Shown here: in pieces, positions 44,981-64,000 of the stretch
Numbering within the stretch: the first letter of the stretch is position 1
How the letters are laid out: every line of letters starts with the position of its first letter
NCBI RefSeq assembly: GCF_003330725.1
Contig: NZ_CP030844.1
Coordinates: 1-64,000, forward strand
Direction of reading: 5' to 3'
DNA: 64,000 bases
Source of the DNA: Acidisarcina polymorpha
Lineage (GTDB): Bacteria; Acidobacteriota; Terriglobia; Terriglobales; Acidobacteriaceae
Translations under genes and position numbers: made by a program
The notes under the pieces: generated by a model
The model's input: only the letters and a program-made list of their open reading frames with translations
Databases searched by the model: none
Told to the model about the DNA's origin: nothing

Positions 44981-45054
44981 TGCTGTCAACTGGGATCTCA
45001 AAGGAATTGGGGCTGCATACCTTCCGAGATGAGCGCGACGCCGGTGGCTTTCAA

Positions 45055-45296
45055 GTCAAAGCTGGAAGAACGAGAAAGGAGACTACGAAACCCGCACCGA
45101 ATGGCTCCGCGTCTATGCCTGGAGCAATCTCTCCAACTTCGCGAAGACTCTCCAGAAGGGCTAGCCCGTCACCCTCGAAGGGACGCTGCGTTATCGCGAC
45201 GTCGAAGACGAAGTCCAGGGCACGACCGTCAAGCACCGGATCGCCGAAATCCACGCAACAAGCCTCAAGCGTCTCTCGAAGATTGAGGCGCGTCTA
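45055..45296 (+). pseudogene. Third, broken ssb copy
   Basis: Read in the frame starting near 45061: [33 protein letters not shown], then an in-frame TAG, then [20 protein letters not shown] and [20 protein letters not shown]. This is colinear with ssb at 14921-15292 (WKNDKGEYETRTEWHRVYAW, LSVEGKLKYREVESDVQGT). The N-terminal third is missing and a stop interrupts the rest. Confidence 0.82.
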
Positions 45297-46164
45297 ACGA
45301 TCCGCAGACGGAGCCGGCGACGAATAGTCGCTTGCCAAAACGCACATTGCAGAATTCAGCCTCGCTCGCCTAGGCAGTGCTACCCCCTCGGTACGGGTCC
45401 AATCTCGAGTGACGATATCAGGCCGAGGCACTCATCGAACCTCGCTCGGGGTGGTGTAGTGACCCATTTCGCTCCAAGACGGACGAAACCGTTGTCGCAC
45501 TCCTCACTATTCAGGCTCGGATGCTTAGGGCGCGAAGTGATCGACCTCATCGACCTTGTAGCGGCGCGGGATCAGTTTGCCTTCGACGATCACCGGATCG
45601 CCGTTCTTCAAACGGGGCTGAGCGCCATTCGGCGCATCCACCTCGGTAGAACCTTTCAACCAAACGGTGCGGCCTTTAACCCACTTCAACAGCCATTCCC
45701 CAAAGCCAGGCAACCTATGTTGACGCAGATTTCTATGCTGTCCGAGGCTGCTGTATCGAGATAGGCACTTTCAACTGGAACATGACCACCTTTTCCGTCC
45801 CGTTCCACTTGGCCATCATGGGGTGTAAGAACAGCTCACGCCGCTGCGCCACGGCGAAAAACTTTACGCTCGTTCTTCGAGCGAGCTCGACGGCCTCCTC
45901 TCCCGAGGCAATGTATGGTCCGCCGCCTAATTGCAAGCATAAAGCCCAGATGAGATGAAGTGGCCTGCGGCAATGTATTCGGCCTATAGGTGAAGCTTTC
46001 GCTTCTGGCCATGATGTACTCCGCGCCCCTCTCTACCTTACAAGCTCGCCGGCATTAAAATGCCTTGCCTTGGGACAGGTTACGAGCGGGCCGGTTTGAC
46101 CTGTTCTCTCATCAGTTCTTCTGCGCGCAATACCGAGGGGAAAATTAAATACAGTAGCAGCCGT
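45297..46164. other. Gene-poor stretch left of the IS110 element
   Basis: Two short minus-strand frames occur: 45525-45713 (LKNGDPVIVEGKLIPRRYKV, slightly OB-fold-like) and 45733-45936 (KWNGTEKVVMFQLKVPISI). Neither has a convincing start or family. They may be scraps of element genes. No other structure seen. Confidence 0.3.
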
Positions 46165-46213
46165 GTGGTGGGAATGTGTGAATCGCGCTAGCGATTTGCA
46201 TCATTTCCACCAC
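46165..46213. repeat. Long imperfect hairpin just behind the IS110 transposase
   Basis: GTGGTGGGAATG...GAATCGC pairs with GCGATTTGCATCATTTCCACCAC, giving about 18-20 paired bases around a GCTA loop. It begins 3 nt after the transposase stop (46216 on the minus strand). It may be the transcription terminator, a subterminal recombinase-binding repeat, or part of a structured element RNA. Confidence 0.65.
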
Positions 46214-46215
46214 TT

Positions 46216-47232
46216 CTACGCAGCGGGACGGTACTGCTGACCGGTTGTCAGAATGGCCCATGCGATACGAGCCAGCTTGTTGGCCAGTGCCACAACAGCC
46301 ACATTGGAATGCTTCCTTACTGCAAGCTCGTCCATCCAGGGACCGAAGCTATGCTGAGATCGGTTTAGTCGTGCGAATGCGGCTCGAGCGCCCTCAACCA
46401 GCATTTTCCGCAAGTACTGATTTCCCCGCTTGCTTATACCCAGCAACTTCGCCTTACCACCTGAGGAGTGCTGCCGCGGAACAAGCCCCAGCCAAGAGGC
46501 CATATCACGGCCTGTCCGGAAAGCTGCTGCATTGCCCACTGCTGCGACAAGAGCGGTGGAGATGATCGGGCCGATCCCGGGAATACCCGTCAAACGTTTG
46601 CACGATTCGTTCGATCGGGAGATACGGCCGATCTCCTCCGTCACATTGCCAATCTTTGCCTCTAGCTCTTCCCACTCTTCTCGGAGTGCTGACAGAATCG
46701 TGCGTGAACGGTCGCTCAGTCCATTCTCCGCATCCTCCAAGACCGCCGGCAAATTCTTTCGAAGATGTTCGGATCCAACCCGTATCGGAAGACCGCGTTC
46801 AAGCAGAAATCCACGGATCTGATTGGTGAGCGCCACCCTGCGTTGAATCCAACGCTCGCGCACGCGGTGAAGCGCCTGCAGATCGAGCTGCTCTTCCGTC
46901 TTCATTGGAACGAAGCGCATGGTAGGCCGCAACACCGCCTCAGCAATCGCCTCTGCATCGATGAAGTCGTTCTTGTTCGACTTCACATACGGGCGCACGT
47001 ACTCCGCCGGCATGAGCCTGACATCGTGGCCTTGGCTGGCAAGAATGCGAGCCAGATAGTGTGATCCGGAGCAAGCCTCCATCCCAATCACCTCCGCCCT
47101 CAGGTTCGCCGTGTACACCAGCAACTGAGGTCGCGAGAACTTCTTCTTCACTACCACGGAGCCCTTCTCATTAAGAGCGACGAGGTGAAAGACGGATTTT
47201 GCAACATCGATTCCAACGGTACGAATAGCCAT
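46216..47232 (-). CDS. IS110-family transposase/recombinase
   Basis: 338 residues with the DEDD RuvC-like N-terminal domain (VGIDVAKSVFHLVALNEKGS, VIGMEACSGSHYLARILASQ, NDFIDAEAIAEAV carrying the D-x-x-D acidic residues). A helical linker follows, then the C-terminal Transposase_20 domain (LTGIPGIGPIISTALVAAVG, GRDMASWLGLVPRQHSSGGK) with the catalytic Ser region. IS110 enzymes excise and insert circular elements guided by a bridge RNA transcribed from the element's non-coding end. The frame is complete and the motifs look intact. Confidence 0.94.
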   Translation of the reverse strand: MAIRTVGIDVAKSVFHLVALNEKGSVVVKKKFSRPQLLVYTANLRAEVIGMEACSGSHYLARILASQGHDVRLMPAEYVRPYVKSNKNDFIDAEAIAEAVLRPTMRFVPMKTEEQLDLQALHRVRERWIQRRVALTNQIRGFLLERGLPIRVGSEHLRKNLPAVLEDAENGLSDRSRTILSALREEWEELEAKIGNVTEEIGRISRSNESCKRLTGIPGIGPIISTALVAAVGNAAAFRTGRDMASWLGLVPRQHSSGGKAKLLGISKRGNQYLRKMLVEGARAAFARLNRSQHSFGPWMDELAVRKHSNVAVVALANKLARIAWAILTTGQQYRPAA

Positions 47233-47412
47233 AACGGTCTCCTCCTGAACGCAACTTCAGAGTGTAGCGAGCGGCGGACCATTACATAAGCTCGGGCCCC
47301 TCTACATCGATTTTCATAGCATCTCTTCTGCGGGGGAAAACCCCGCAGCCCCCCTTCAATCATGGCGCGTGACCGCGCCGTATTCGGTAGACAAACCCCT
47401 AATGGTGAGAGC
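47233..47412. ncRNA. Candidate bridge-RNA region of the IS110 element
   Basis: About 180 nt upstream of the transposase start contain no gene but several small foldable segments, including TGCGGGG-GAAAA-CCCCGCA (about 47317-47335). In IS110 elements of the IS621 type the bridge RNA is encoded in the non-coding end upstream of the recombinase. The exact element boundary and the guide loops cannot be set by eye. Confidence 0.3.
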
Positions 47413-48908
47413 ACCGGGAGATGGTTTACGTTTCGTACCGGGAAGAGAGTTTACAAGGCCCTTGCGGGGAAATTGGCTCTGGTTCTGGGTAAAGGCTGGC
47501 CGAGCCCGGTCTGTAATAAGAATATCTCCCGCCGTCGAAGCGTTGGGAATGTGGGAATCCCGAAGGGATTTCCAAGAGGAGTGGGACGGGTGGAAAACCG
47601 GCTTTATGGTTTTCCATGCTTTCCACTCCTCGTCATTTCCAACGCTTGTTTTAGGGACGAAGCGCCGGTAGAAACCGCATTTCGTTGACATCGAACGCAC
47701 CAACTTCCAAAGAGCAGAAGTAGACTCGATAGAAGGCGTCCTGGACTTTTTCGAGTGCTATATCCTGGCCGCGAAAGACTTGGCTGATGAATACCCGGCC
47801 CTTATGCCAGCTAATATCTCCTGAGTCGTTGACACGCCGCGTCTGGAAGTGAGCAGGATACTGATATGCCTTCGTGTACCGTGGCAGAAGCCGCGAGCTG
47901 GGCACATAGATGTTGCCGGGTGTTTCGTTCCCCAAGGCTTCGTGCGGACGCTCATGGTTATAGACCCGGCGAAACTCATCGAACCGTTTTTGCTGTGCCT
48001 GGAGCGTCTTCGCGGACGGGTTCGTTGTGTCCTGCTTGAGTGTGCGATGCATCCGTTCGTGTCGACCGTTCTGCTGCGGTTTACCCGGCTGAATGCGTTC
48101 ATGCACGATCCCGAGGCGCACCCAGTTAAGTGACAACTGGGACAGTCCCAGCAAGGCATGTCCAGAGAATGGGCATCCGTTGTCCGTACGAATCCTGTCA
48201 GGAACACCATACTCGCGCATCGCTGCCTCGCAGATCGCGAGTACATGCGCCGTATCCATCCGGGTTATGGCCTGACAGCGGATCAGATAGCGACTGTAGG
48301 CATCTGTAATGGTGAACGGATCGCATCGGTGCCCATCTCCTGTGCGGAACCAGCCCTTGAAGTCCATGCACCATAGCTGGTTCGGTGCGGTGACCTCAGC
48401 GAAGGGTTCTGAGTATGGAGTGGTTCTGCGTCTCTTGCGAACAGGGTTCGTGAGTCCGGCCCGGCGAAGAATCTGGCCAATGGTGCTAGCTGCTGGCCAT
48501 ACAACGTTCGGGTTCATCTTCTCCAAACGCGCCTTCAACTTCCGCGCTCCCCAGGAAGGAAAACGCTTCCGAAGAGCAAGTATCTCGTTTTCGATCTCCA
48601 TAGAGGTTGCATGAGAACAACCGTGGGGTCTGCGCGAAATATCCAGCAAGCCTTCCGGGCCAACTTCGTTATATCGCTTGATCCACTTATAGGCGGTTGG
48701 GCGTGAGATGCCGTACTCATGGCACAAGTCCGTCACAGACATCTCTGCCTTCTGATAACTCGATAAGAACTGCAAGCGTTGATCCACAATACGACTCTCT
48801 CTCCAAGGCATAAACGCATCTTCCTGCGTTACGTCCTTCGTTGAAGAGCCACTCCTCCCATATCTGTAAACCCTGTCTCCGGTCTTGCGTGTAAACCATG
48901 TCCCCGGT
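47413..48908 (-). mobile_element. IS481-family element with tandem terminal repeats
   Basis: Right end: two tandem ~19-nt units TGTAAACCCTGTCTCCGGT (48865-48883) and TGTAAACCATGTCCCCGGT (48890-48908). Left end, inverted: 47413-47455 contains ACCGGGAGATGGTTTACG and TACCGGGAAGAGAGTTTACA. The outer units form the terminal inverted repeats (ACCGGG...ATGGTTTAC). The element encloses the transposase at 47651-48811 and a 200-nt non-coding left flank in which open frames look spurious. Both ends and the transposase are intact, so it may still be active. Confidence 0.85.
47651..48811 (-). CDS. IS481-family transposase
   Basis: 386 residues. N-terminal HTH (SVTDLCHEYGISRPTAYKWI, KRYNEVGPEGLLDISRRPHG), then the rve integrase core: LWCMDFKGWFRTGDG (first Asp), IRTDNGCPF (second Asp) and GKPQQNGRHERMHRTLKQDT (catalytic Glu). 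The GKPQQNGRHERMH box and the C-terminal YNHERPHEALGNETPGNIY pattern are typical of IS481. The upstream start ATG 48811 lies about 50 nt inside the right-end repeats. Confidence 0.95.
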   Translation of the reverse strand: MPWRESRIVDQRLQFLSSYQKAEMSVTDLCHEYGISRPTAYKWIKRYNEVGPEGLLDISRRPHGCSHATSMEIENEILALRKRFPSWGARKLKARLEKMNPNVVWPAASTIGQILRRAGLTNPVRKRRRTTPYSEPFAEVTAPNQLWCMDFKGWFRTGDGHRCDPFTITDAYSRYLIRCQAITRMDTAHVLAICEAAMREYGVPDRIRTDNGCPFSGHALLGLSQLSLNWVRLGIVHERIQPGKPQQNGRHERMHRTLKQDTTNPSAKTLQAQQKRFDEFRRVYNHERPHEALGNETPGNIYVPSSRLLPRYTKAYQYPAHFQTRRVNDSGDISWHKGRVFISQVFRGQDIALEKVQDAFYRVYFCSLEVGAFDVNEMRFLPALRP

Positions 48909-49127
48909 ACCTACTATGGGCCAGCCCCTCGCGCTCTGCAAGGCCTTTCGCCCTCCGGGTTTTGGCTCCCCCACGCCTGCCAAAAACGCAGCCGCGGTCC
49001 CCCCAAAAAGCTGCGCTCGAAGACCTTTCCGTTTGCTACCCCCGCCTTCGCCAGGTGGCGTTCGGCATTTGCATGCCGCGTTTCCACGCGGAAAAGCAAA
49101 AGCAAAAAACCCACGGAGGCAGCATCC

Positions 49128-50042
49128 ATGAACCCCACCCTCAGCCCTACCCTACCGGCTTCCGCCAGTGAAAAGCGGAAGCCTGCATCGTCCAAAGAAC
49201 TCATCGCCGCCAACATCCAGAGCCTTATTGAGCAACTGGAGGCAGGACACTCCGAAGGTCTCACCGCCTACCTTGCCGCCATGGGCAAATTCCATAACTA
49301 TTCCTTCGGCAACATCCTCGAAATCGCACGGCAACGCCCTGACGCTCAAAAAGTAGCGGGACTTTATGCGTGGAACCAGTTAGGCCGTAAGGTCAGGAAG
49401 GGCGAACGCGGCATTCGCATTCTGGCGCCGATGATCGGCATCAAGCGCAAGAAGGATTCCGCAGCCGAGAAAGAAACACCCGAACAGAAGAAGCCTGCTT
49501 TGGTTGGCTTTCGCGCGGTGTACGTCTTCGATGTCTCCCAGACCGACGGCGCACCGCTTCCCGAGCTTTCAAGCAAGGTCAAAGGTTCCGTGGGCGAGTA
49601 CCGCGAAAGGCTTTTCGCGTTCGTTGCCGTGCAGGGCATCGAGCTTGAGTACGACAATTCCATCAGCCCTGCAATGGGCGTGAGCTATGGGGGACGCATC
49701 GTCCTCTTACCCGGTCAGGAGCCAGCCGAGGAGTTCAGCACCTTGGTTCACGAAGTCGCGCATGAGCTTCTCCACAAAGCCGAGCGCAGAACCGCAACTA
49801 CCAAGACTGTTCGCGAGACCGAAGCCGAGGCCATCGCCTTTGTTGTCTCGACCACCATCGGACTTGACGCTGGACACACCAGCGCCGATTACATCTCGCT
49901 CTATAACGGCAATGCCGCGCTCTTAGCCGAGAGCCTGGAGGTCATTCAGCGGGCCTCAGCCATCATCCTCTCCGCCATCGAATCCGCCCCGGTCGAAGAC
50001 GCCGAGGCACCCGCAGAAGCCGAACTCGCCCAGGCGAGCTAG
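49128..50042 (+). CDS. ArdC-like antirestriction protein with zincin domain
   Basis: ATG 49128 has GGAGG 9 nt upstream; 304 residues. The N-terminal domain (about 20-140) is DUF1738/ArdC-N-like, which binds single-stranded DNA: LIEQLEAGHSEGLTAYLAAM, FHNYSFGNILEIARQRPDAQ and GIRILAP. The C-terminal domain (about 155-285) is a zinc-metallopeptidase fold with TLVHEVAHELLHKAERR (HExxH) and a downstream ETEAEAIAFVVSTTIGL that supplies the third ligand. ArdC proteins protect incoming plasmid DNA from restriction. First gene of the plus-strand cluster, 219 nt after the IS481 right end. Confidence 0.9.
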   Translation: MNPTLSPTLPASASEKRKPASSKELIAANIQSLIEQLEAGHSEGLTAYLAAMGKFHNYSFGNILEIARQRPDAQKVAGLYAWNQLGRKVRKGERGIRILAPMIGIKRKKDSAAEKETPEQKKPALVGFRAVYVFDVSQTDGAPLPELSSKVKGSVGEYRERLFAFVAVQGIELEYDNSISPAMGVSYGGRIVLLPGQEPAEEFSTLVHEVAHELLHKAERRTATTKTVRETEAEAIAFVVSTTIGLDAGHTSADYISLYNGNAALLAESLEVIQRASAIILSAIESAPVEDAEAPAEAELAQAS

Positions 50043-50131
50043 ACCCCGAGTTTCCCCTTTCTATGGGCGGACGGCCCACCCGTCCGCGCCGCTTTGACCG
50101 CACGATCCAACCCGCCCAAAGGAGGGCCATC

Positions 50132-51838
50132 ATGCAGGATTCCAGCGCATTCCAGTTTCTCGCCATCAACACCATCCACGCGTCCAAGACCAACCCCCGC
50201 AAGACCTTCGACGAAGCCAAGCTTTATGAGCTTGCTGAGTCCATCAAGCACAACGGCATGATTCAGCCCATCACCGTCAGGCCGAACCATCAGGGCTTCG
50301 AGATCGTCGCCGGGGAGAGACGTTTCCGCGCCGCCCAGATCGCCGAGTTGTTTTCCGTTCCCGCCCGTATCGTCGACCTCGACGATGCCGCGAGTCTCGA
50401 ATGGGCTTTGGTCGAGAATTCGCAACGTTTGGACGTTCACCCTTACGAGGAGGCGCAGGGCTTCCAGCGCTTGCTCGACATGCCCGGCTACGATGTGGCC
50501 GCTTTGGTCGAGAAGTCCGGCAAGAGCGCAAGCCATATCTATGGCCGTCTCTCCCTCTTGCAACTGATTCCCGAAGTGGCCGAGGCGTTCGTGCAAGAGC
50601 GTATCACCGCCAGCCATGCCAACCTGATCGCTCGCCTGCCGCAGGAACACCAGGCCGAGGCTTTCGAGCAGTGCTGGCGCAAAGACTGGAGTGATACCGA
50701 AGCCCATCTCCTACCCGCGAAATTCCTTTCTTCGTGGATACAGAACAACCTTTATCTCCCCCTTGCCGACGCGCCCTTCGACCGCGAAGATGCAACCCTC
50801 AATCCCGCTGCCGGAGCTTGCACCACCTGCCCCCGCCGCAGCGGATACAACACCGCACTCTTTCCCGACGTGGCATCGGATGAGTGCCTAGACGGAAATT
50901 GCTACAGGTTGAAAATCTCAGCACATGTAGACCGTGAGATTGTCGCTCATCCCGAGTACATCCAGATCGAGACCTCGTGGCGCAGCCGCAGTGAACAGCG
51001 CCCTGGAGTCCTAGACCCTAGTGAGTACGAAATCCTCGACACCCCCGAGAACCCGGATGCCGAGCCACCCTGCCCGTTCACCCGCACCGCTCTGATCGTC
51101 TACGGCAAACACGTTGGCACCACCGTCAGCGTTTGCACCGAGGACGACGACTGCCCTGTCCACAACCCCGACGTGGCGCAGCGCCTCGCAGCGGCCCCGA
51201 CCGTTATATCTCTCGCCACGCCCGCTCCTCTAAGCAATACAGAAGAGGAGACCGAAGGTGAGGACGAGGCCGAAGAGCAAGCCGCCCAGCGCCAGCAGGA
51301 GGCCGAACGGCTCAGACAAGAGTTCAAGGAAAAGCAGGAGCACCAAGCCGAGGAGCGCCGCAGGGAGTCCCAAAGGCAGCATGAGGAGTACGAGGCCGAA
51401 CGCGCCCGGAAAGCGGCCTTACATCAAGAACGGCTGGCCACGCTCAACCGGATGATCGAGAATGCGCCCGCCATGTTCAGCGCGGCGCAATTGAGGCTCT
51501 TCCTTTCCGCGCTCATCGACCTCAACCTCTATTTCGATGAAGATGTGGCGGCAGCCATCGTTGGCGACGATGAAAACAACCAGCAGAGCGCGGAGGAGGT
51601 TCTAGCCAGCACCCTTGCCAAACTGCCCGACGACAAGCTTACAGGCTTCGCCCTCCGTCTCGGCTTCACCGCCCACACCGCTCTTCCCCGTCAAGGCGAA
51701 ACCGACTTCCTGGCCGCAGCTGCAGCCGCCTTCGCTCCACCGCAACCCCAGAAAGCCAGCAAGCCGAAGAAGGCGCAGACGCCCCGCGCCAAGGCTACGC
51801 CTAAAAAGACCGCCCCGAAAAAGAAAGTCGCAGCCTAG
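50132..51838 (+). CDS. Long ParB/RepB-like partition protein with Cys cluster and coiled coil
   Basis: ATG 50132 with AAAGGAGG 8 nt upstream; 568 residues, about twice a typical ParB. N-terminal ParB/Srx domain: NPRKTFDEAKLYELAESIKH, GMIQPITVRP, GERRFRAAQIAEL (CTP-binding box, residues 61-73) and ENSQRLDVHPYEEA. HTH at about 120-142 (DVAALVEKSGKSASHIYGRL). A cysteine cluster CTTCPRRSG and CLDGNCY (about 230-260) could bind zinc. Residues about 375-450 form a charged coiled coil (EEDEAEEQ-type), and the tail is Lys/Ala/Pro-rich, probably DNA-binding. Such long forms occur on plasmids and integrative elements. No ParA is seen, so partition may be atypical or the protein may be a regulator. Confidence 0.9.
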   Translation: MQDSSAFQFLAINTIHASKTNPRKTFDEAKLYELAESIKHNGMIQPITVRPNHQGFEIVAGERRFRAAQIAELFSVPARIVDLDDAASLEWALVENSQRLDVHPYEEAQGFQRLLDMPGYDVAALVEKSGKSASHIYGRLSLLQLIPEVAEAFVQERITASHANLIARLPQEHQAEAFEQCWRKDWSDTEAHLLPAKFLSSWIQNNLYLPLADAPFDREDATLNPAAGACTTCPRRSGYNTALFPDVASDECLDGNCYRLKISAHVDREIVAHPEYIQIETSWRSRSEQRPGVLDPSEYEILDTPENPDAEPPCPFTRTALIVYGKHVGTTVSVCTEDDDCPVHNPDVAQRLAAAPTVISLATPAPLSNTEEETEGEDEAEEQAAQRQQEAERLRQEFKEKQEHQAEERRRESQRQHEEYEAERARKAALHQERLATLNRMIENAPAMFSAAQLRLFLSALIDLNLYFDEDVAAAIVGDDENNQQSAEEVLASTLAKLPDDKLTGFALRLGFTAHTALPRQGETDFLAAAAAAFAPPQPQKASKPKKAQTPRAKATPKKTAPKKKVAA

Positions 51839-51845
51839 CCCGGAG

Positions 51846-51871
51846 GCGGGGAGTCCCTTCGGACTCCCCGC
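51846..51871 (+). repeat. Strong hairpin between parB-like and WGR-ligase genes
   Basis: GCGGGGAGTCC (51846-51856), loop CTTC, GGACTCCCCGC (51861-51871): an 11-bp perfect stem 8 nt after the parB-like stop and 38 nt before the next start. No T-run, so it more likely protects or partially attenuates the transcript than ends it. Confidence 0.6.
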
Positions 51872-51908
51872 GCACCACCCCACACCGATCCATAAGGAGA
51901 ACACTGTT

Positions 51909-53030
51909 ATGAGCACTCTAGCCGTATCCGCGTCCACCGCCGCCGTCTCGCTTTATTACCGCGAAGGCAGCTCCGATAAGGTCTACCACGCCCAGATCAC
52001 TCCCAAAGGGAGTGATCTCTACATCGTCGAGTTTCAATATGGACGGCGCGGTTCCACCCTCCAGACCGGTGTGAAAACCGACGCCCCGCTCCCGCTCGAC
52101 CAGGCCCGAAAAGTCTTCGAGAAACTCGTGCGCGAGAAAAAGGCCATGGGCTACACCGAGGGCGAGCAAGGAACCCCCTATGCCGGGGGCGAGCTCGCCA
52201 ACCGCCGCTTTGTCTATACGCCGCAATTGCTCAACTCCGTCGACGAATCCGTCTTGCCCGACTATCTCCGCAGTCCTGATTGGCTTATGCAGGAAAAGAT
52301 GGACGGCGTTCGCCTGATCGTCGAATCTTGCGGGAACGTTGTCACGGCGGGAAACCGCCGCGGTCTCGCGGTCGCAATCTCCACCGCCATCCCCGAGGCC
52401 GTCCTTGCGCTCGGCCACGATTGCGTCTTGGATGGAGAAGCTATCGGCGATGTCTACTGGCCCTTCGATCTGCTCAGCTTCGACGGCAGCGACATCACCC
52501 GCCGCTCCGCCACCTACCGCCTCCAGCTCCTTATGGCGATCCTCAAGGCAAGACCTTCGAAAGCGATTGGCCGTGTCGCGGTCGCGTTTGTGGAACGCGA
52601 CAAACGCGCCTTGCTCGAAACGATTCGAGCCGAACGCGGGGAGGGTGTCGTCTTCAAGAACGCCCACGCCCCTTACACCCCAGGACGGCCTGGCTCTGGC
52701 GGCGATGCCCTGAAGCATAAATTCAAGGCCAGCGCGACCTGCGCCGTGCTCTCGCACAATCCGGGCAAACGCAGCGTTCAGATCGCGGCCTCGCACGACG
52801 CCTCGCCCTCTTCAACCTTTCAACGTTTCGTCGAAATCGGCAACGTCACCATTCCCGGAAGCGCACCGCTGCCCCCGGTCGGCAGCCTCATCGAAGTCGA
52901 GTACTTGTATGCCTACGCGGCAGGAGCGCTCTTCCAGCCCGTCTACAAAGGCCCACGGTTCGACAAGCACTCACCCGATGTCTACGCCTCGCTGAAGTTC
53001 AAACCGGAATACAGCGGCGACGGCGAGTGA
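51909..53030 (+). CDS. WGR-domain / ATP-dependent DNA ligase fusion
   Basis: ATG 51909 with AAGGAGAA 9 nt upstream; 373 residues. Residues about 10-80 form a WGR domain (LYYREGSSDKVYHAQI, then EFQYGRRGSTLQTG; the core Trp-Gly-Arg is Tyr-Gly-Arg at 44-46). Residues about 100-285 form an ATP-dependent ligase core: motif I EKMDGVR with AMP-Lys at 130, VLDGEAIGDVYWPFDLLSFD (motifs III/IIIa), EGVVFK (IV, 245-250) and KHKFK (V, 269-273). Residues about 286-365 form an OB-like domain. All nucleotidyltransfer residues appear present. The WGR part is known from PARP and MolR proteins as a nucleic-acid-end-sensing fold, so this may be a nick/end-sensing repair ligase. It is third in the ArdC/ParB-like cluster. 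Confidence 0.92.
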   Translation: MSTLAVSASTAAVSLYYREGSSDKVYHAQITPKGSDLYIVEFQYGRRGSTLQTGVKTDAPLPLDQARKVFEKLVREKKAMGYTEGEQGTPYAGGELANRRFVYTPQLLNSVDESVLPDYLRSPDWLMQEKMDGVRLIVESCGNVVTAGNRRGLAVAISTAIPEAVLALGHDCVLDGEAIGDVYWPFDLLSFDGSDITRRSATYRLQLLMAILKARPSKAIGRVAVAFVERDKRALLETIRAERGEGVVFKNAHAPYTPGRPGSGGDALKHKFKASATCAVLSHNPGKRSVQIAASHDASPSSTFQRFVEIGNVTIPGSAPLPPVGSLIEVEYLYAYAAGALFQPVYKGPRFDKHSPDVYASLKFKPEYSGDGE

Positions 53031-53305
53031 CCTGCCTGCAGACTTCACCCATCAACCCTATGCGGCGCGGCACAGGGCCAAAAGCCCGTGCCGGGAACCG
53101 CCCGCTTTGCCGCCCTAACGTTTTCAACAACCCCGTTGCGGGGGGCACCCTTCGCGGAGCCGCCCCGCATCGTAAGCCCAAACAAAATTCAGAACTAACA
53201 GCCTGCTCCCGCAGTCCGGTAGCTACACAATGCTACCGGTTGCTATCGACCTATATCCAGGTTGAAAGTACATGTCGTTGTTGCCTCCCCCGTTCGTTCT
53301 GACGT

Positions 53306-53581
53306 GTGGGCCTGTCGGCATCGAAACGGGTCGCGCCGCTGCGGTCTTCAGGGCCTCTGCTTTCCCGGCTCCCCCAAAGAAATAACGGCCTCCCGGCCTT
53401 GCTTCGCACATTTCTTCGGTCCCCCCGAGAATGCCGCCCCTTGCCCTTGCTGGTCATCGTGGCGCTCTTCGGCACCAAGGACCAATTCGACAGCGCCAAG
53501 GAGATGCTTCCCATCCTCGTTGGTCTAATTACTCCGGTACTCACCGCTGCAATGGCCTTCTACTTCCCAGAAAAAGAGTGA
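53306..53581 (+). CDS. Possible small membrane protein closing the cluster
   Basis: The last ~46 codons look real: LPLLVIVALFGTKDQFDSAK, then EMLPILVGLITPVLTAAMAF and YFPEKE, i.e. two hydrophobic helices with a polar turn. The first half of the 91-codon frame is Arg/Pro/Ser-rich and probably non-coding, so the true start (perhaps a GTG or TTG near 53450) is uncertain. It is followed by a strong hairpin 7 nt after the stop, which supports a real 3' end. Confidence 0.35.
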   Translation: MGLSASKRVAPLRSSGPLLSRLPQRNNGLPALLRTFLRSPRECRPLPLLVIVALFGTKDQFDSAKEMLPILVGLITPVLTAAMAFYFPEKE

Positions 53582-53587
53582 ATCCCG

Positions 53588-53614
53588 CCGGCAGGGTGGG
53601 GCCCACCCTGCCGG
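53588..53614 (+). terminator. Strong GC-rich hairpin closing the ArdC/ParB/ligase cluster
   Basis: CCGGCAGGGTGG (53588-53599), loop GGC, CCACCCTGCCGG (53603-53614): a 12-bp perfect stem, followed by TTAACTC but no long T-run. Probably a terminator or a 3' stabiliser. Confidence 0.7.
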
Positions 53615-53994
53615 TTAACTCTCAAAACTTCTCCCCTATAGCACCTGCTGCTCCGTCAAGCGGAACGCCACCTTTCTAGAAGGAGTTCTCCTCCGCATGG
53701 GGTATCTTTTCAGGGGTTGCATCACGGAATGCTGAGATCCAACGAGCAGGCATCGGCTTGCGTAAACGTTCGTTTGCGCAACGCGCTCTGAGGGGGTCTG
53801 TGTGAGTGCGTCGGCGATTTATGAGGCGGTGAGAGATCGGCTACGATACGTGCGCCCGACTTGCCCGGAAAGCCGGTTATACGGCAACGTGCCTGTGCTT
53901 GGTCGATCCGATCGGCTCAATGAGCGCGCTGCCCTGGTGTCGTCAACACACGACGCACAGTTAGCTTTGCAACTAGGTAAGTTGTTTATTTTTT
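53615..53994. other. Gap without a supported gene
   Basis: An 82-codon plus-strand frame (53802-54050) is Arg-rich with no recognised pattern and overlaps a better minus-strand frame. Nothing else seen. Confidence 0.3.
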
Positions 53995-54168
53995 TTAACT
54001 ATCTGGGTTTTCCACTTTCGATCTCTGGCGATCAATCGCCTCCAGGTTGAAGCGCATGTTTTGATTCTTCTCTAAGAGTTGAGCTACCAAAATCTGTAAT
54101 ATCACGGCGCGGTGACGCCAGTAGGCTTCACCTGCTTCGGAGATCTCTTCGATCGGATCTGATTGCAT
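53995..54168 (-). CDS. Small hypothetical helical protein
   Basis: 57 residues from ATG 54168 (MQSDPIEEISEAGEAYWRHR). Predominantly helical and charged: AVILQILVAQLLEKNQNMRF then NLEAIDRQRSKVEN. It may be a small regulator or a scrap. It shares the strand of the redox cluster that begins at 54302. No family recognised. Confidence 0.4.
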   Translation of the reverse strand: MQSDPIEEISEAGEAYWRHRAVILQILVAQLLEKNQNMRFNLEAIDRQRSKVENPDS

Positions 54169-54301
54169 GGACGCCTCCGTCGTGATCATGAAATGGTCAA
54201 GATGAATCTACCGTAACTTGAGGACCCGAGATCAGCCAGACTCAAAGGAGTGAATCGGACCCAGTCCTTTTGGTTCTCTTCTTCATGATTTCAGACCCAC
54301 T

Positions 54302-54691
54302 TCAGCTCTCGATGGGGATGTTGTCGGGCAACTGAGTACTCTGAAAGTAAGAAAGCCGCAAAGCTGAGTCTACCTGCTCGTAAACTGCAACAAGCCGAAA
54401 CTTCGTGGATGTCGTGAACCCTCGTCGGACTGCGGTCGCATGACTCTCGCCTATTACCATCGCTGTCGTCTCAAAGACGCGGACATCCTCGATACACAGC
54501 ATGATCGAAGTGAAGGCCAGTCCACCCTCCCGAAGGTCACGGAGTACCTCTTCCTTGTTCAGCATAGAACCGTCGGAACGCACTAGTCTGTAGTCGTCAG
54601 AATAAAGCGCGGAGAGAGCATTAAGGTCGCCCGACAGAAGGGCACCGTAGAAGTGTTCGTGATGCACTTTCAAGACGTCCTGTGCGTTCAA
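54302..54691 (-). CDS. NTF2-like (SnoaL/DUF4440-type) protein
   Basis: 129 residues with the cone-shaped NTF2 fold: VLKVHHEHFYGALLSGDLNA then LSALYSDDYRLVRSDGSMLN (typical DUF4440 start), KEEVLRDLREGGLAFTSIML, VRVFETTAMVIGESHATAVR and FRLVAVYEQVDSALRLSYFQ. Family members bind or transform small hydrophobic molecules; many are accessory to oxidoreductases. It lies at the 3' end of the minus-strand cluster, 86 nt behind a broken lipocalin-like gene. Confidence 0.88.
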   Translation of the reverse strand: MNAQDVLKVHHEHFYGALLSGDLNALSALYSDDYRLVRSDGSMLNKEEVLRDLREGGLAFTSIMLCIEDVRVFETTAMVIGESHATAVRRGFTTSTKFRLVAVYEQVDSALRLSYFQSTQLPDNIPIES

Positions 54692-54777
54692 GTTGAACCT
54701 CCAGTTCGGTCAATCGAGGGAAGCGTTAGCTCGTTGTGCTAGCAAATCCTGATTCTCAGATCTTTCCAGTTCTTTCT

Positions 54778-55273
54778 TCAGCCGAGTGCGCACAGCGCTC
54801 CCAGCGTCATGGAGCTTAGCGATGCTGCTTCAACCAGCGGAGTCGACGTGACTGACCCCCCTCCAGCTTTCGAAGTCACGACCGTCAATGTCAGTCGATC
54901 GCCATCTAGTTTCACCTGACGCTTCAATCGCTGTCCTATCAGTGCAGGAACAAAGGAGACGCTGGGAATATGAGTTACGGTCGCTGTGACCTCATCGAAT
55001 TGATATTCACCGGAGTAGCCGATGAAGTTCTCTGATTCTTTCTCATCATCACTTTGGGGGTTTGAATTCCAATCACCGACAACATGCGACGAACGACGGA
55101 CACTCATCAGTAGATCGGACATGAGGCCACCAGGCGTGTAGGATTAACGCCAAGGGGAAGCACGGCTTCTGCCTCTTCAGCGGTATCCGTGTAGCTCTCA
55201 AGGCTCCATGAGCCTATGAGGTCTGCGCCGACAGCAGGCGCGCCGGGCCTTGCGGAATTGATGTAGCGAGCAT
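54778..55273 (-). pseudogene. Lipocalin-like protein, frameshifted
   Basis: Starting at ATG 55273 (AGGAGAA upstream), the frame breaks before LIGSWSLESYTDTAEEAEAV, continues to LPLGVNP, and shifts again to YTPGGLMSDLLMSVRRSSHV. The last part, ENFIGYSGEYQFDEVTATVT, then VTHIPSVSFVPALIGQRLKR and LDGDRLTLTV, is in one frame to 54778. GxWxLxSY, YTxxGxMS and NFIGYSGxYxxD are the Lipocalin-like signature. Two or more indels make it inactive unless they are sequencing errors. Confidence 0.75.
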
Positions 55274-55340
55274 TGTTTCTCCTAAGTGAGGAGGTGCTCC
55301 TCGCGGTCTTTTGGTTCTATCGAAGAACGACTAGCCGCAT

Positions 55341-56441
55341 TCATATGGCGACGGGATAGTCGGTGTAGCCGTGTTCCCCGCCTCCATAAAATGTAGATCG
55401 GTCGTATTTGTTCATTGGAAGTCCATCTCGTATGCGCTCCACGAGGTCAGGGTTGGCTATAAACAGTCGTCCGAAGGCGATGCCATCCGCTTCTCCCTTA
55501 GAGACTGTTTGGGTAGCTGATGACGGCGTGTAAGCTGCAGCCGAGATTAGGGGGCCTCGGAAATTGGACCGGAAGAGTTGCGCATTGTTGAGAGCCTCTT
55601 CATGCAATCCGTCTCCAAGTCCAATCTCGGAGCCCCGGCCCTCGATGAGGTGAAGATAGGCGATTTGTCGTTTGTCGAGGGCACTGATCGCGATTCCATA
55701 TAGATGCAATGGATTGCTATCGTGAATACCACCGTATTGTCCAAACGGAGACAGACGCACACCCAAACGGTTTATGCCGACAGCTGCGCTCACCTTGTCG
55801 ACCACTTCGAGAAGAAAGCGAACGCGGTTTTCGGCAATGCCACCATATTCATCTGTGCGTTTGTTCGTACCATCCTGCAGAAACTGATCGATGAGATGGC
55901 TATTGGCCGCCTGAACCTCGACACCGTCGAAGCCGGCCTCTATTGCATTCAGAGCGGCCTGAACAAAAGTATCAACGATCGTCGAAATCTCGTCCGTCTC
56001 AAGAGCTCGCGGAGTTTCGGTTGGAACCTGCTTGAATTCATTCGTAAACGCGGGCAGGTCCGGTGGGATAGCGGACGGAGCAACCGGAAGGCTGTTCTGG
56101 GGTAATAAGGAGGAATGCGAATTCCGACCGTTGTGAGCAATCTGCAGAAATATCCTTCCCCTTTTGGAGTGAACCGCGTCCGTTACCGAGCGCCATCCGT
56201 TGATTTGATCCTCCGTATAAATCCCCGGTGCGCCAGGATAGCCCTGTCCTTGATGACTTACAGCTGTGCCCTCGGCGATTATGAGACCAGCCGACGCACG
56301 CTGTGCATAGTATTTTGCATTGAGTGCCGTCGGAACGTTCCCGGTGCCTGCCCTCATTCTAGTCAAGGGTGCCATGATGATCCGATTTTGCACTTTGATG
56401 GTACCGAGTTGCAATGGAGCGAATAGAGCGTCGTGATTCAT
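55341..56441 (-). CDS. Old Yellow Enzyme family alkene reductase (copy 1)
   Basis: Start ATG 56441 (MNHDALFAPLQLGTIKVQNR), 366 residues. FMN-binding TIM barrel: RIIMAPLTRMRAGTGNVPTA, ASAGLIIAEGTAVSHQGQGY, GRIFLQIAHNGRNSH, GVEVQAANSHLIDQFLQDGT, NKRTDEYGG and EADGIAFGRLFIANPDLVER. In classical members the substrate-anion site is H-x-x-N followed by Tyr two positions on (LHAANGYL). Here it is Q-A-A-N-S-H, so the His is Gln and the Tyr is His. It may reduce different substrates or be slow. Third gene from the left end of the cluster and one of three OYE paralogues here. Confidence 0.93.
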   Translation of the reverse strand: MNHDALFAPLQLGTIKVQNRIIMAPLTRMRAGTGNVPTALNAKYYAQRASAGLIIAEGTAVSHQGQGYPGAPGIYTEDQINGWRSVTDAVHSKRGRIFLQIAHNGRNSHSSLLPQNSLPVAPSAIPPDLPAFTNEFKQVPTETPRALETDEISTIVDTFVQAALNAIEAGFDGVEVQAANSHLIDQFLQDGTNKRTDEYGGIAENRVRFLLEVVDKVSAAVGINRLGVRLSPFGQYGGIHDSNPLHLYGIAISALDKRQIAYLHLIEGRGSEIGLGDGLHEEALNNAQLFRSNFRGPLISAAAYTPSSATQTVSKGEADGIAFGRLFIANPDLVERIRDGLPMNKYDRSTFYGGGEHGYTDYPVAI

Positions 56442-56510
56442 CAGATTTTCCCGTCTGCGTTCCTTAAAGCCGTAATCAAGCAAGGGGTTGGAGTTGAAGC
56501 AATTAGGGGA

Positions 56511-58098: not shown

Positions 58099-58596
58099 CT
58101 ATGCGGTTGTATCTGCGGACGGACCGTAGATGGAAGGAACTGCAGCACCCATCGGCCTGAGGTAGGTGGATAGCTGTCCTCGGTGATGGATGCCATCGAA
58201 GAGAAACAACCAGAGGATCTGCCCAAGTGGTTGCGTGAGAATGACAATGCCGCTAGAGGTCACCTTTCGCTCTTTAAGCCAATCGGTTGGGTCTATCGCG
58301 ACAAGTTGCTGTTGGAGTCGCTCCGCAGAGTGATGGAACTCTGCCAGGAGCGCTACATGATCAGGATGATTTGTGCGCGGCACTTCTGTGCTGTCGGAGC
58401 TCGTGAGATGATTTGAAATCTCAAGGCAGCGAACGATCGTCCAAGCCGTTGTTCCTGCGGTTGGCGAATTAGGATGGGTACGGTAGGAAAGCATGTCAGC
58501 AGGAATCGCATGAAGAACCTTAGCCGTTGTCGCCGATTCCACCCGGTGGCGCTCCCGAAAGAACTCGATCGTTCCAACTGGATCAAAGTCGGGCAT
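58099..58596 (-). CDS. DinB-family four-helix protein
   Basis: ATG 58596 lies inside the end of the preceding OYE gene (14-nt overlap), so the two are coupled. 165 residues, four-helix DinB/YfiT fold: VGTIEFFRERHRVESATTAK and FDGIHHRGQLSTYLRPMGAA. The conserved H-H-R-G-Q with an upstream His gives the usual three-His metal site. DinB-like proteins are metal-dependent enzymes such as thiol transferases using bacillithiol/mycothiol-type cofactors. Function in this operon unknown, probably detoxification. Confidence 0.88.
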   Translation of the reverse strand: MPDFDPVGTIEFFRERHRVESATTAKVLHAIPADMLSYRTHPNSPTAGTTAWTIVRCLEISNHLTSSDSTEVPRTNHPDHVALLAEFHHSAERLQQQLVAIDPTDWLKERKVTSSGIVILTQPLGQILWLFLFDGIHHRGQLSTYLRPMGAAVPSIYGPSADTTA

Positions 58597-59767
58597 ACTG
58601 CACCTCCCCTTGAGTGGTCTCAATCTCGTCGATTGTGGGGTAGTCGGTATACCCAGCGGCCGTTGCTCCGTAGTACCCTTCCGGTCTCTGAGGATTCAAT
58701 TTAGAGCTTCTGCGTATCCGCTCGACCAGGTCTGGATTGGCGATGTATTCGCGGCCGAAAGCAATCATCTCTCCCAGTTTGTCGCGGAGAAGTTGCTCAC
58801 CGCGCTTGGGGCTGATGTCGACGTTGAGTATCAATGTGCCTGAGTACAATTTCCGAAAGTGGTGAAGCACGCCGTCCCTCTGCAGTGGTTCGATCGGAGT
58901 GTCGGAGAGGTCTGCAAGCTGGCGCATCAACATGACATGGGACAGGTCGTAGTCGTTCAGTCTGCGATACACGTATTCCGCCGTGGGCAGCGTCGATGAC
59001 GAGGAACGGAATCCTCCGCGCTCGGGCATCATGGTTCCGGCCTTTACTCCGACCCTGGAGCTTGGCCAGACCTCAAGAACCGCTTCCAATGCTTCGAAAA
59101 GAAGACGGGCCCGGTTCTCGATGGAACCACCGTAGTTGTCTGTTCGAAGATTCAGGTTCTCCTGCATGAATTGCTGAAACAGGTAAACAAATCCGCCCTG
59201 GATCTGGACACCGTCGAAGCCGGCGTCGCGGGCAACCTTTGATGCATGCCTGAAGTCCGCAATCGTCTGCCGAATGTCATCAAGAGTCATGGCAGTTGGG
59301 ACCTGCGTCATCTCCGTATTGCCATAGCCGGTGTGAACCAGTTGCTCCGGATTGACCGCGGACGGTCCTAGGGGGGAGTAACCGTGGCCGACGAGTGCGC
59401 GACTGGAGACTGACCCCTGATGCCAGAGCTGCACGATCATGTGGCCGCCCGCGCGGTGCACGGCGTCGGTAATCGTGAGCCATCCCTTGCGTTGTTCCTC
59501 GGTGTATATCCCTGGTGCTCCGAACCAGCCACGCGCTTGATCACTGACGAACGTCCCTTCGCTGATGATCAGACCAGCACTCGCTCGCTGTTCGTAATAC
59601 TCCCGCATCAGATCGTTGGGAACGGCGCCGGGTGTGGGCGTCCGCATTCTTGTTAGCGGGGCCATCACGACCCGATTTCGTAGCTCCAGATCACCGAACA
59701 GGATCGGTTGCAGAAGAAATCCCTTACTTCCTTCGTGCGAAGTTTCGTCTGTAGCGCTCTTTAACAT
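58583..59767 (-). CDS. Old Yellow Enzyme paralogue with rebuilt active site (copy 2)
   Basis: ATG 59767 (AGGAGAA upstream), 394 residues. OYE barrel: RNRVVMAPLTRMRTPTPGAV, ASAGLIISEGTFVSDQARGW, MIVQLWHQGSVSSRALVGHG, LNLRTDNYGGSIENRARLLF and GEMIAFGREYIANPDLVERI. The segment that normally carries the substrate-binding His and Asn (HAANGYLxxQF) reads IQGGFVYLFQQF: both His and Asn are lost while Tyr is kept. FMN binding should persist, but classical enone reduction is doubtful. A long Ser-rich insertion (FRSSSSTLPTAEYV) lies at about 268-281. Confidence 0.92.
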   Translation of the reverse strand: MLKSATDETSHEGSKGFLLQPILFGDLELRNRVVMAPLTRMRTPTPGAVPNDLMREYYEQRASAGLIISEGTFVSDQARGWFGAPGIYTEEQRKGWLTITDAVHRAGGHMIVQLWHQGSVSSRALVGHGYSPLGPSAVNPEQLVHTGYGNTEMTQVPTAMTLDDIRQTIADFRHASKVARDAGFDGVQIQGGFVYLFQQFMQENLNLRTDNYGGSIENRARLLFEALEAVLEVWPSSRVGVKAGTMMPERGGFRSSSSTLPTAEYVYRRLNDYDLSHVMLMRQLADLSDTPIEPLQRDGVLHHFRKLYSGTLILNVDISPKRGEQLLRDKLGEMIAFGREYIANPDLVERIRRSSKLNPQRPEGYYGATAAGYTDYPTIDEIETTQGEVQYARL

Positions 59768-59817
59768 CTGTTTCTCCTGTCTCATCCCCCGCGTTGCGCC
59801 GCTGCAATTGAGATCGG

Positions 59818-63123: not shown

Positions 63124-64000
63124 TTATGCCGAAAGGACGGCGCTATAGGCTAGATAGTCCGAGTACCCGTGTTCGTCAAAGGTGTAAAAGGTTCCGCGGT
63201 CGTATTCGGAGAGTGGCAAGCCTTCACGTATGCGGAGCGGAAGATCCGGATTAGATACGAAGTAACGCCCAAACGCCACCGCGTCTAACGTTCCGGAAGC
63301 GACGATCTGTTCTGCGGTATCTGGTTCGAATCCGCCGGCCGCGATCAGTTTCCCTCTGAAGATGCGGCGAAGTTTCTCGGAGGCCACGGCTCCCTGGCCT
63401 GCATGGATCAAATCACTGCCGCCAATGCGAGGCTCGATGATATGAAGGTAAGCAAGGTTATAGTCGTTGAGCTTCTCCGCGATATAGGAGAACAGCGCAT
63501 CGGGGTCGCTGTCGGACATTCCATTCCACGTACCGTTTGGACCGAGGCGCACGGCCACACGATCTGGGCCCCAAACGGAGATCAAGGCCGCGAGAATCTC
63601 AAAGAGGAAGCGGCTGCGATTCACAATCGAACCGCCGTAATCATCCGTTCGCTTGTTACTGCCATTCTGCAGGAACTGATCGACTAAGTATCCGTTGGCC
63701 GCGTGCAACTCTACACCTTCGAAATCAGCGTCCATTGCTCGCTGCGCAGCGTTTCTGTAGTCCTGCACAACGCAGTCAATCTCTGTGACCGTCAAAGCAC
63801 GATGTGGCGTGGACTGCGCCCATCCTCCAGGGATCGACACCAGGTGATTCGGATGTTCCCAATAGCTTGGGTCTACGGAGGCAGAGACCGGCATTGCTCC
63901 ACCAGTCATCGCGGTATGCGACGAGCGACCCGTATGCCAGAGTTGGGCAAACATATGGCCGCCCTTCGCGCGGACGTCGGCGACGATCTTGCTCCATCCC
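63124..64000 (-). CDS. Old Yellow Enzyme family alkene reductase (copy 3), 5' end outside window
   Basis: The frame is open to the window edge (upstream residues GWSKIVADVRAKGGHM before FAQLWHTGRSSHTAMTGGAM), so the true start lies beyond 64000; about 291 residues are visible. Canonical active site: GVELHAANGYLVDQFLQNGS (His and Asn present, Tyr present), NKRTDDYGG, VAVRLGPNGTWNGMSDSDPD and LDAVAFGRYFVSNPDLPLRI. Of the three OYE paralogues it is the only one with the classical H-x-x-N-x-Y set. Probably a NAD(P)H-dependent 2-enoate or N-ethylmaleimide-type reductase. Confidence 0.93.
   Translation of the reverse strand, partial: GWSKIVADVRAKGGHMFAQLWHTGRSSHTAMTGGAMPVSASVDPSYWEHPNHLVSIPGGWAQSTPHRALTVTEIDCVVQDYRNAAQRAMDADFEGVELHAANGYLVDQFLQNGSNKRTDDYGGSIVNRSRFLFEILAALISVWGPDRVAVRLGPNGTWNGMSDSDPDALFSYIAEKLNDYNLAYLHIIEPRIGGSDLIHAGQGAVASEKLRRIFRGKLIAAGGFEPDTAEQIVASGTLDAVAFGRYFVSNPDLPLRIREGLPLSEYDRGTFYTFDEHGYSDYLAYSAVLSA

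Follow-up and report, generated by a model that had tools for sequence, protein, structure and literature searches.

The window analysed here comprises the first 64,000 nucleotides of contig NZ_CP030844.1 of Acidisarcina polymorpha SBC82, which is the first part, about half, of the 121,048-bp circular plasmid C5. The SBC82 genome consists of a circular chromosome of 7,112,011 bp and four circular plasmids of 62,450, 108,812, 196,405 and 121,048 bp (PMC6252331). Three consecutive plus-strand genes of the window are considered, coding for an ArdC-like antirestriction protein (49128..50042), a long ParB/Noc-like protein with a cysteine cluster (50132..51838) and a WGR-domain ATP-dependent DNA ligase (51909..53030), as well as a structured leader (48910..49126, plus strand) directly upstream of the ArdC gene. 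An earlier note, made from the sequence alone, had combined the three genes into a candidate undescribed DNA-maintenance system. The positions of the genes were confirmed by the open reading frames (ORFs) and the Pfam domains, and strong ribosome-binding sites (GGAGG, AGGAGG, and AAGGAG) are present in front of each of them. The GC-rich hairpin which had been placed at the gene ends was found directly 3′ of the ParB gene (51845..51871, plus strand), between the ParB and ligase genes, whereas the one assigned to the ligase lies about 560 nt past its stop codon.

The ArdC-like protein consists of 304 amino acids and contains both parts by which the ArdC family is recognized, an ArdcN domain (PF08401, 2.9e-9) and a zincin with the HExxH motif, which is retained in all six aligned ArdC proteins. 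It also matches PHROG 7245, an anti-restriction protein (5.4e-14). The architecture of ArdcN and zincin is common to this protein and ArdC of R388. The window protein belongs to a divergent subfamily (ArdC_A): it reaches 37.6 bits against ArdcN compared to 135.8 bits for the copy at locus L137, to which it is 25% identical. The latter represents ArdC_B, a second ArdC type with an MPTase-PolyVal zincin (PF18818).

The ParB protein has a length of 568 amino acids and contains a ParB_N domain (8.6e-28) and an HTH_ParB domain (1.1e-13). Its nearest solved relatives are Spo0J, ParB, and Noc. Together with the GERRFRAA box in its sequence, the features by which ParB proteins of the cytidine triphosphate (CTP) switch type are recognized, namely ParB_N, the helix-turn-helix domain and the GERR box, are found. 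PRTRC ParB (TIGR03734) likewise has a ParB_N domain with CTP box and a helix-turn-helix domain, and the alignment spans residues 19-268 of the window protein; however, the latter scores under the cut-off of this family (142.8 vs. 278.6 bits) and carries a long tail. A ParA gene, as expected for a ParABS system, is missing from the ArdC-ParB operon in the ORF list of the window. The ligase consists of 373 amino acids with a WGR domain (5.5e-8) and DNA_ligase_A_M (6.5e-14). For the predicted domains of all three genes, chance matches are not a concern.

A survey of the ParB protein in 200 genomes of the family Acidobacteriaceae returned 30 loci including the window, with flanks of about 1.5 kb, some of them ended by contig edges; several of these relatives align over the first 350 residues only, at 40-47%. 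An ArdC homologue is located upstream of ParB in 23 of the 30 loci. The ligase adjoins ParB at one locus, which is the window itself, and is present in three of the 200 genomes, A. polymorpha included. At the two other ligase loci of the family no ArdC match was obtained, and one of them shows a weak ParB match at a distance of about 8 kb. The 18 ligase loci from outside the family (L002-L019; 13 genome contigs and five plasmids, 3.8-25 kb) were searched at E 1e-8, and neither ArdC nor ParB was matched there. The ligase is also separated from the ParB gene by the hairpin, as the first 70 nt past the ParB stop codon fold to -28.9 kcal/mol. In our own reading of the folding output, a stem of at least eight pairs occurs in 12 of 13 distinct ParB 3′ flanks. 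Plasmid C2 of the same genome carries a broken 3′ fragment of ParB (L052:13350-13939), whose DNA is 93-96% identical to that of the window, and this homology stops at 51869, at the hairpin ahead of the ligase.

On the basis of this co-occurrence, the trio was rejected as a system. The consecutive, codirectional genes and their plausibly complementary activities would fit a dedicated three-part machinery of ArdC, ParB, and WGR-ligase for DNA maintenance, but with one adjoining pair among 30 loci, the 18 loci outside the family, the strong hairpin, and the end of the homology to C2 at this hairpin, such a system is very improbable. Judged from its neighborhoods, the WGR-ligase gene is best regarded as a plasmid gene in its own right, which appears to follow the operon here by chance. 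Of what had been proposed for the trio, a connection of the region with incoming DNA is plausible, and ArdC and the long ParB form a real conserved pair.

The leader upstream of the ArdC gene is of a type I form and was found repeatedly in the family. Positions 48955-49105 of the window match the region before an ssb gene on the sister plasmid C3 at 88.7%, and leader DNA was matched in 38 of the 200 family genomes (E <= 0.01, weak matches counted). A covariance model, which was built on the 102-position core of the leader, finds this core in 40 of 349 genomes of the class, 37 of which belong to the Acidobacteriaceae (one marginal). At class level, matches outside the family were no more than marginal (E 1.4e-5 to 7.5e-4), and a draw of 297 genomes from the phylum yielded 14 with the leader, one of them outside the family (E 2.4e-4). 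In the genome of A. polymorpha itself eight copies were identified.

In a search of Rfam, positions 45000-56000 gave two sub-threshold matches (E 0.41 and 0.8), both outside the leader, and positions 48880-49200 gave none; a known RNA family was therefore rejected. PLSDB contained no blastn match to the leader, although records of the own genome are possibly omitted there, and no exact match to one 28-position leader pattern was found in IMG/VR. In a literature search, limited mostly to non-subscription journals, neither a description of this folded control sequence nor Acidobacteria conjugative elements with ArdC were found, and leaders of establishment genes appeared solely in the paper on pLS20.

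For 105 leader copies, including the window and seven stretches originally fetched for their ParB, the downstream region was searched for ten proteins. The first recognized gene encodes ArdC_A in 80, ArdC_B in seven, and SSB in three cases, followed by ParB (two), DUF3560 (one), and DUF6908 (one), with none of the ten proteins found behind the remaining 11 leaders. Hence 94 of the 105 leaders precede ArdC, SSB, ParB, DUF3560, or DUF6908, as expected for an establishment operon, which encodes antirestriction, SSB, or similar first-entry functions. Within the 2.7 kb read, and with truncated matches counted, ArdC, DUF6908, and ParB occur together at 38 leaders, ArdC and ParB without DUF6908 at 11, the window among them, ArdC and DUF6908 without ParB at 13, and ArdC alone at 27. 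From these sequences, leader–ArdC–(DUF6908)–ParB emerges as the conserved unit. Between copies, the leader core is more alike than the coding sequence of ArdC which follows it (74.3% vs. 67.6% identity; higher in 1604 of 2145 pairs from 66 loci, which were chosen by leader similarity).

Two loci deviate in their gene content. On a 66-kb contig with TrwC and VirB8 (L237, G476:C2), a variant operon consists of leader, DUF6908, SSB, and ParB and lacks ArdC. On a 115-kb contig (L055, G149:C2), a close ArdC-ParB pair is followed by a gene for 93 amino acids and by genes for a RepB-type primase and an SSB-like protein, at the place where the window has the ligase.

The fold of the leader is conserved and covarying. 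In 31 type II leaders, 35 consensus pairs were determined on the plus strand, with 97.1% of the cells paired compared to 36-55% with slid partners and two-sided changes at eight pairs. The complementary strand gives 41 pairs, of which 98.3% of the cells are paired (46-52% slid) and ten show two-sided changes. The 16 type I leaders form 34 pairs, four of them with two-sided changes. The fold was checked on leaders which were fetched later, lie outside the 31 training leaders and were aligned by a sequence-only profile. In 45 distinct new leaders, 90.2% of the plus-strand cells are Watson-Crick and 5.4% G-T pairs (slid 28-40% Watson-Crick), and seven pairs covary. Four of these 45 rows share at least 95% identity with a training leader. 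The 36 new leaders with less than 90% identity to any training leader give nearly the same values (89.3% and 5.7%, seven covarying pairs). On 46 new rows, the complementary fold reaches 86.5% Watson-Crick pairs plus 9.0% A-C, which corresponds to G-T on the complement. A folded single strand, as in Frpo/ssi, is thus found as a covarying fold on both strands. For positions 48950-49127 of the window alone, folding compared to shuffles gave z values of -2.30 as DNA and -1.61 as RNA.

Which of the two strands folds was addressed by energy and by pair variation. The consensus fold of the complement has a lower energy than that of the plus strand (-48.8 vs. -26.0 for A1 and -43.0 vs. -29.3 for A2), partly because of the G content of the complement, and since the difference vanishes against shuffles, folding energy was dropped as a means of deciding the strand. 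Among the strand-neutral pairs, cells with A-C, which is G-T on the complement, exceed those with G-T by 13-14 to 1-2 in type II leaders and by only 3-4 to 1-2 in type I leaders. At each of the pairs 32-161 and 51-81, which lie in covarying helices, 17 of about 46 new leaders carry A-C, and G-T does not occur. The pair variation therefore leans to the template strand, without settling it.

These data bear on the alternative that the leader acts at the RNA level, within the 5′ part of the operon transcript, for instance as an attenuator, an antiterminator or an autoregulatory leader bound by a protein, rather than as single-stranded DNA. An RNA element would agree with the G-U pairs used on the plus strand at 60-74 and 136-151, with the end of the leader at the ribosome site immediately ahead of the start codon, and with the new leaders forming standard pairs equally well on the plus strand (95.6%) and on the complement (95.5%), each on its own structure. 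The lower consensus energy of the complement, even if favored by its G-richness, the excess of A-C cells and the two pairs without any G-T speak against it, and we consider this alternative a serious one, albeit on the doubtful side.

As a further alternative, the leader could be a parS-like operator with the palindrome arms GGCAT/ATGCC, by which ParB regulates its own operon. ParB-type proteins bind palindromes, the operon encodes such a protein, and the arms are nearly invariant in 40 aligned cores. However, the spacing of the arms differs by about 4 nt among the copies, which fits the loop of a hairpin and not a rigid dimer site, helices in other parts of the leader covary, and behind the three leaders which precede ssb genes, ParB was not matched within the sequence read. 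An operator of this type is therefore unlikely.

The operon is part of an element with conjugation genes. The half of plasmid C5 beyond the window carries a relaxase gene (C5:85086-86516; DUF3363, 1.8e-7, and PF03432 exactly at the cut-off), which lies on the strand of the leader, and the genes for VirD4, VirB4, VirB6, VirB8, VirB9, VirB10, and VirB11, so that relaxase and type IV secretion genes accompany the operon on its carrier, as in establishment operons. In addition, a RepA_C initiator, a RepB-type primase, a topoisomerase and a ParA/VirC1-like protein (C5:112383-113087, about 60 kb from the ArdC-ParB operon) are encoded there. Since the locus is on a circular plasmid, a chromosomal island was ruled out. 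Since ParA and a replication or relaxase gene seemed to be missing, the earlier note had suggested a stand-alone module; RepA, relaxase, and ParA-like genes were found on the rest of the plasmid, and with them the argument falls. Both outcomes which had been named as counting against a three-gene system are largely what was observed, as the three families rarely co-occur elsewhere and the genes lie on a plasmid with conjugation genes.

The linkage of leader and relaxase was analyzed in 20 family genomes, 19 of which bear the leader. A TrwC-type (MOBF) relaxase was detected in all 20 and VirB8 in 19 of them. As the relaxase and VirD4 of the window plasmid have no homologues in 11 other genomes, TrwC was used for the orientation test. 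The set of 68 leader copies comprises the covariance matches and four copies of genome G187 from the DNA search; two weak matches were left out (G486 with E 6.3e-8, 59 kb from the nearest TrwC, and G280 with E 8.8e-5 on a contig without TrwC). Sixty copies share a contig with a TrwC match, and 34 are located within 50 kb of TrwC, compared to about 4.3 expected by random placement with rounded genome sizes. These 34 copies come from 17 genomes of five genera, and 33 of them are on the same strand as TrwC (19/20, 5/5, 6/6, 2/2, and 1/1 by genus); 26 of the 34 are downstream of it. Beyond 50 kb the strand is shared in 19 of 26 cases. MOBF conjugative elements look common in the family, with 1-8 TrwC matches per genome in these 20 genomes, several of which consist of a single contig.

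Taken together, ArdC-ParB is most probably an establishment operon of conjugative plasmids and integrative and conjugative elements of Acidobacteriaceae under the control of a structured leader, with the WGR-ligase as an independent neighbor. We assign a probability of about 75% to this reading. The element would enter the recipient as single-stranded DNA, and the leader before ArdC would permit an early and transient expression of the operon. ArdC would then coat the incoming strand and counter restriction, while the orphan ParB may load onto the new DNA and protect or mark it. SSB and DUF3560 genes, which follow copies of this leader at other places in the genomes, would be switched on along with the operon. 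As soon as the DNA has become double-stranded, the leader would fall silent and may block read-through, like EGeRS1 on pLS20. For single-stranded DNA as the trigger, our confidence is moderate.

This proposed sequence of events has precedents in other systems. ArdC of R388 is required in the recipient but not in the donor (PMC7213743). On pLS20, repeated structured sequences lie upstream of ardC and four other operons, and the one repeat tested has no constitutive promoter and blocks read-through (PMC8708921). Genes for antidefence and SSB proteins are located in leading regions on the transferred strand, some of them behind folded Frpo promoters (PMC11541004). An F-like system sends, among others, the proteins ParB1, ParB2, SSB, and PsiB into recipients (PMC8406263) and thereby provides a precedent for ParB-type proteins at the step of DNA entry.

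Several points weigh against the establishment reading or limit the figures on which it is based. The leader copies were found by their likeness to that of the window, which biases the conservation figures upward, and an alignment of 83 type II leaders with MAFFT gave almost no consensus fold (three pairs without G-U), probably due to the misaligned variable 5′ half. When single sequences were folded, for which 16 of the 31 leaders of type II and all 16 of type I were taken, they only mildly beat shuffles, with a mean z of -1.2 to -1.5. No preference for a strand appeared either, with the complement lower for 8 of 16 leaders in one case and for 6 of 16 in the other. Half of the 68 copies are more than 50 kb away from TrwC or on contigs without it, the window plasmid has a relaxase of another type, and the copies share ancestry, so that the strand statistic does not represent 34 independent trials. 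In addition, no sigma-70-like promoter was found in 48600-53700 of the window, with 1.1 expected, and the leaders fit the sigma-70 hexamers no better than coding DNA (7.22 vs. 7.52 of 12, n = 101). A canonical promoter in the leader was rejected on both hexamer scans, and a plain Frpo is therefore not supported.

By description, the leader resembles two known types of control sequences. EGeRS1 of pLS20 is a repeated structured non-coding sequence which, as here, stands immediately in front of the ribosome site, both at ardC and at further establishment operons, and similar structured repeats before such genes were also found in Acidobacteriaceae. As in the leader, no promoter, in this case of the sigma-A type, is recognized in EGeRS1. 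However, EGeRS1 measures 420-750 bp and occurs in five copies on one plasmid of the Gram-positive Bacillus, whereas the leader comprises about 200-250 nt and is spread over plasmids and chromosomes of Acidobacteriaceae. The Frpo/ssi single-strand promoters of F and related plasmids likewise consist of folded DNA in front of ssb and antidefence genes; those genes are part of the leading region and have the transferred strand as template (PMC11541004). In contrast to the leader, Frpo has a recognizable -35/-10 in the fold. We tentatively propose, at somewhat less than even odds, that the leader represents a new class of single-strand-responsive elements. It would be unrelated to Frpo, lack sigma-70 hexamers, fold on the transferred (template) strand and switch on a regulon of ArdC, DUF6908, ParB, SSB, and DUF3560 across the MOBF elements of Acidobacteriaceae, while IS481 would exploit its 5′ edge as a target.

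It is also conceivable that ArdC-ParB is a leftover of decayed elements without a present function. Many copies are on contigs of chromosome size, and truncated or broken versions of the ArdC or ParB gene occur among them. In contrast, ArdC matches exceed 240 residues at 66 leader copies, the active-site motif is retained in the six aligned ArdC proteins, and the window carries an intact copy, on a plasmid which also has conjugation genes; mere decay is therefore quite improbable.

An establishment operon of this kind provides a concrete and testable starting point for the question of how Acidobacteria acquire conjugative elements and how these become established in new cells. Because a conserved leader marks the establishment genes, the regulon can be listed by sequence, as with pLS20. 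The leader further raises the question whether control triggered by single-stranded DNA has arisen more than once with a different promoter chemistry.

The ligase, which was the striking part of the earlier finding, belongs to a separate family of plasmid genes. The motifs K-x-D-G-x-R, DGE, EGxxFK, and KxxF are invariant across nine aligned ligases, so that motif I (KxDG) and motifs III-V of ATP-dependent DNA ligases are present in the sequence; the enzyme may seal nicks. The same architecture of WGR and ligase is found in plasmid-borne proteins annotated as WGR domain-containing or RNA ligase family protein, and eight relatives aligned to the window ligase are 31-49% identical to it. A ligase match was obtained in 24 plasmid records, 17 of which cover at least 80% of the query. 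The neighborhoods of five of the 24 records were read. Where the neighbors of these ligases were read, they include DUF932, YqaJ, and recombination-directionality genes (L004) or PRTRC genes, and not ArdC-ParB. Elsewhere, a distant WGR-ligase is located about 4 kb from a Ku gene (L065:11400-17356, G081:C17), which hints at a context of end joining. A relative was also seen in Tunturiibacter phage Tunturi_5, a 309-kb jumbo phage with an Acidobacterium host (PP885688.1:53694-54713; 30.7% identity over 88%). No characterization of WGR and DNA ligase on plasmids or megaplasmids was evident in the accessible parts of the literature searched.

Two transposase genes, whose family names are taken from the earlier note, precede the leader as ORFs on the minus strand. 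The IS481-like one (47651..48811) is located just upstream of the leader, and such genes lie immediately upstream of 22 of the 105 leaders (among others at L054, L063, L119, L132, L136, L139, L140, L153, and L157), their matched parts being 58-100% identical to that of the window. In 21 of the 22 cases the orientation is the same divergent one, and the distance to the leader core amounts to 211-244 nt. This pattern suggests that the insertion of IS481 is targeted to the 5′ edge of the leader. The assumption that the trio had arrived together with the IS110/IS481 pair is not borne out, since this near-constant position and orientation make it more likely that the insertion sequence landed beside an existing operon. 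The IS110-type transposase (46216..47232) has a second copy on the same plasmid (C5:71289-72305, L066:7289-8305), which encodes an identical protein of 338 amino acids.

Finally, three minus-strand genes further downstream in the window (55341-56483, 58583-59785, and 63124-63954) resemble, by eye, flavin oxidoreductases of the Old Yellow Enzyme type, and genes resembling these putative oxidoreductases are also present at a chromosomal locus (L053:2935-6385).

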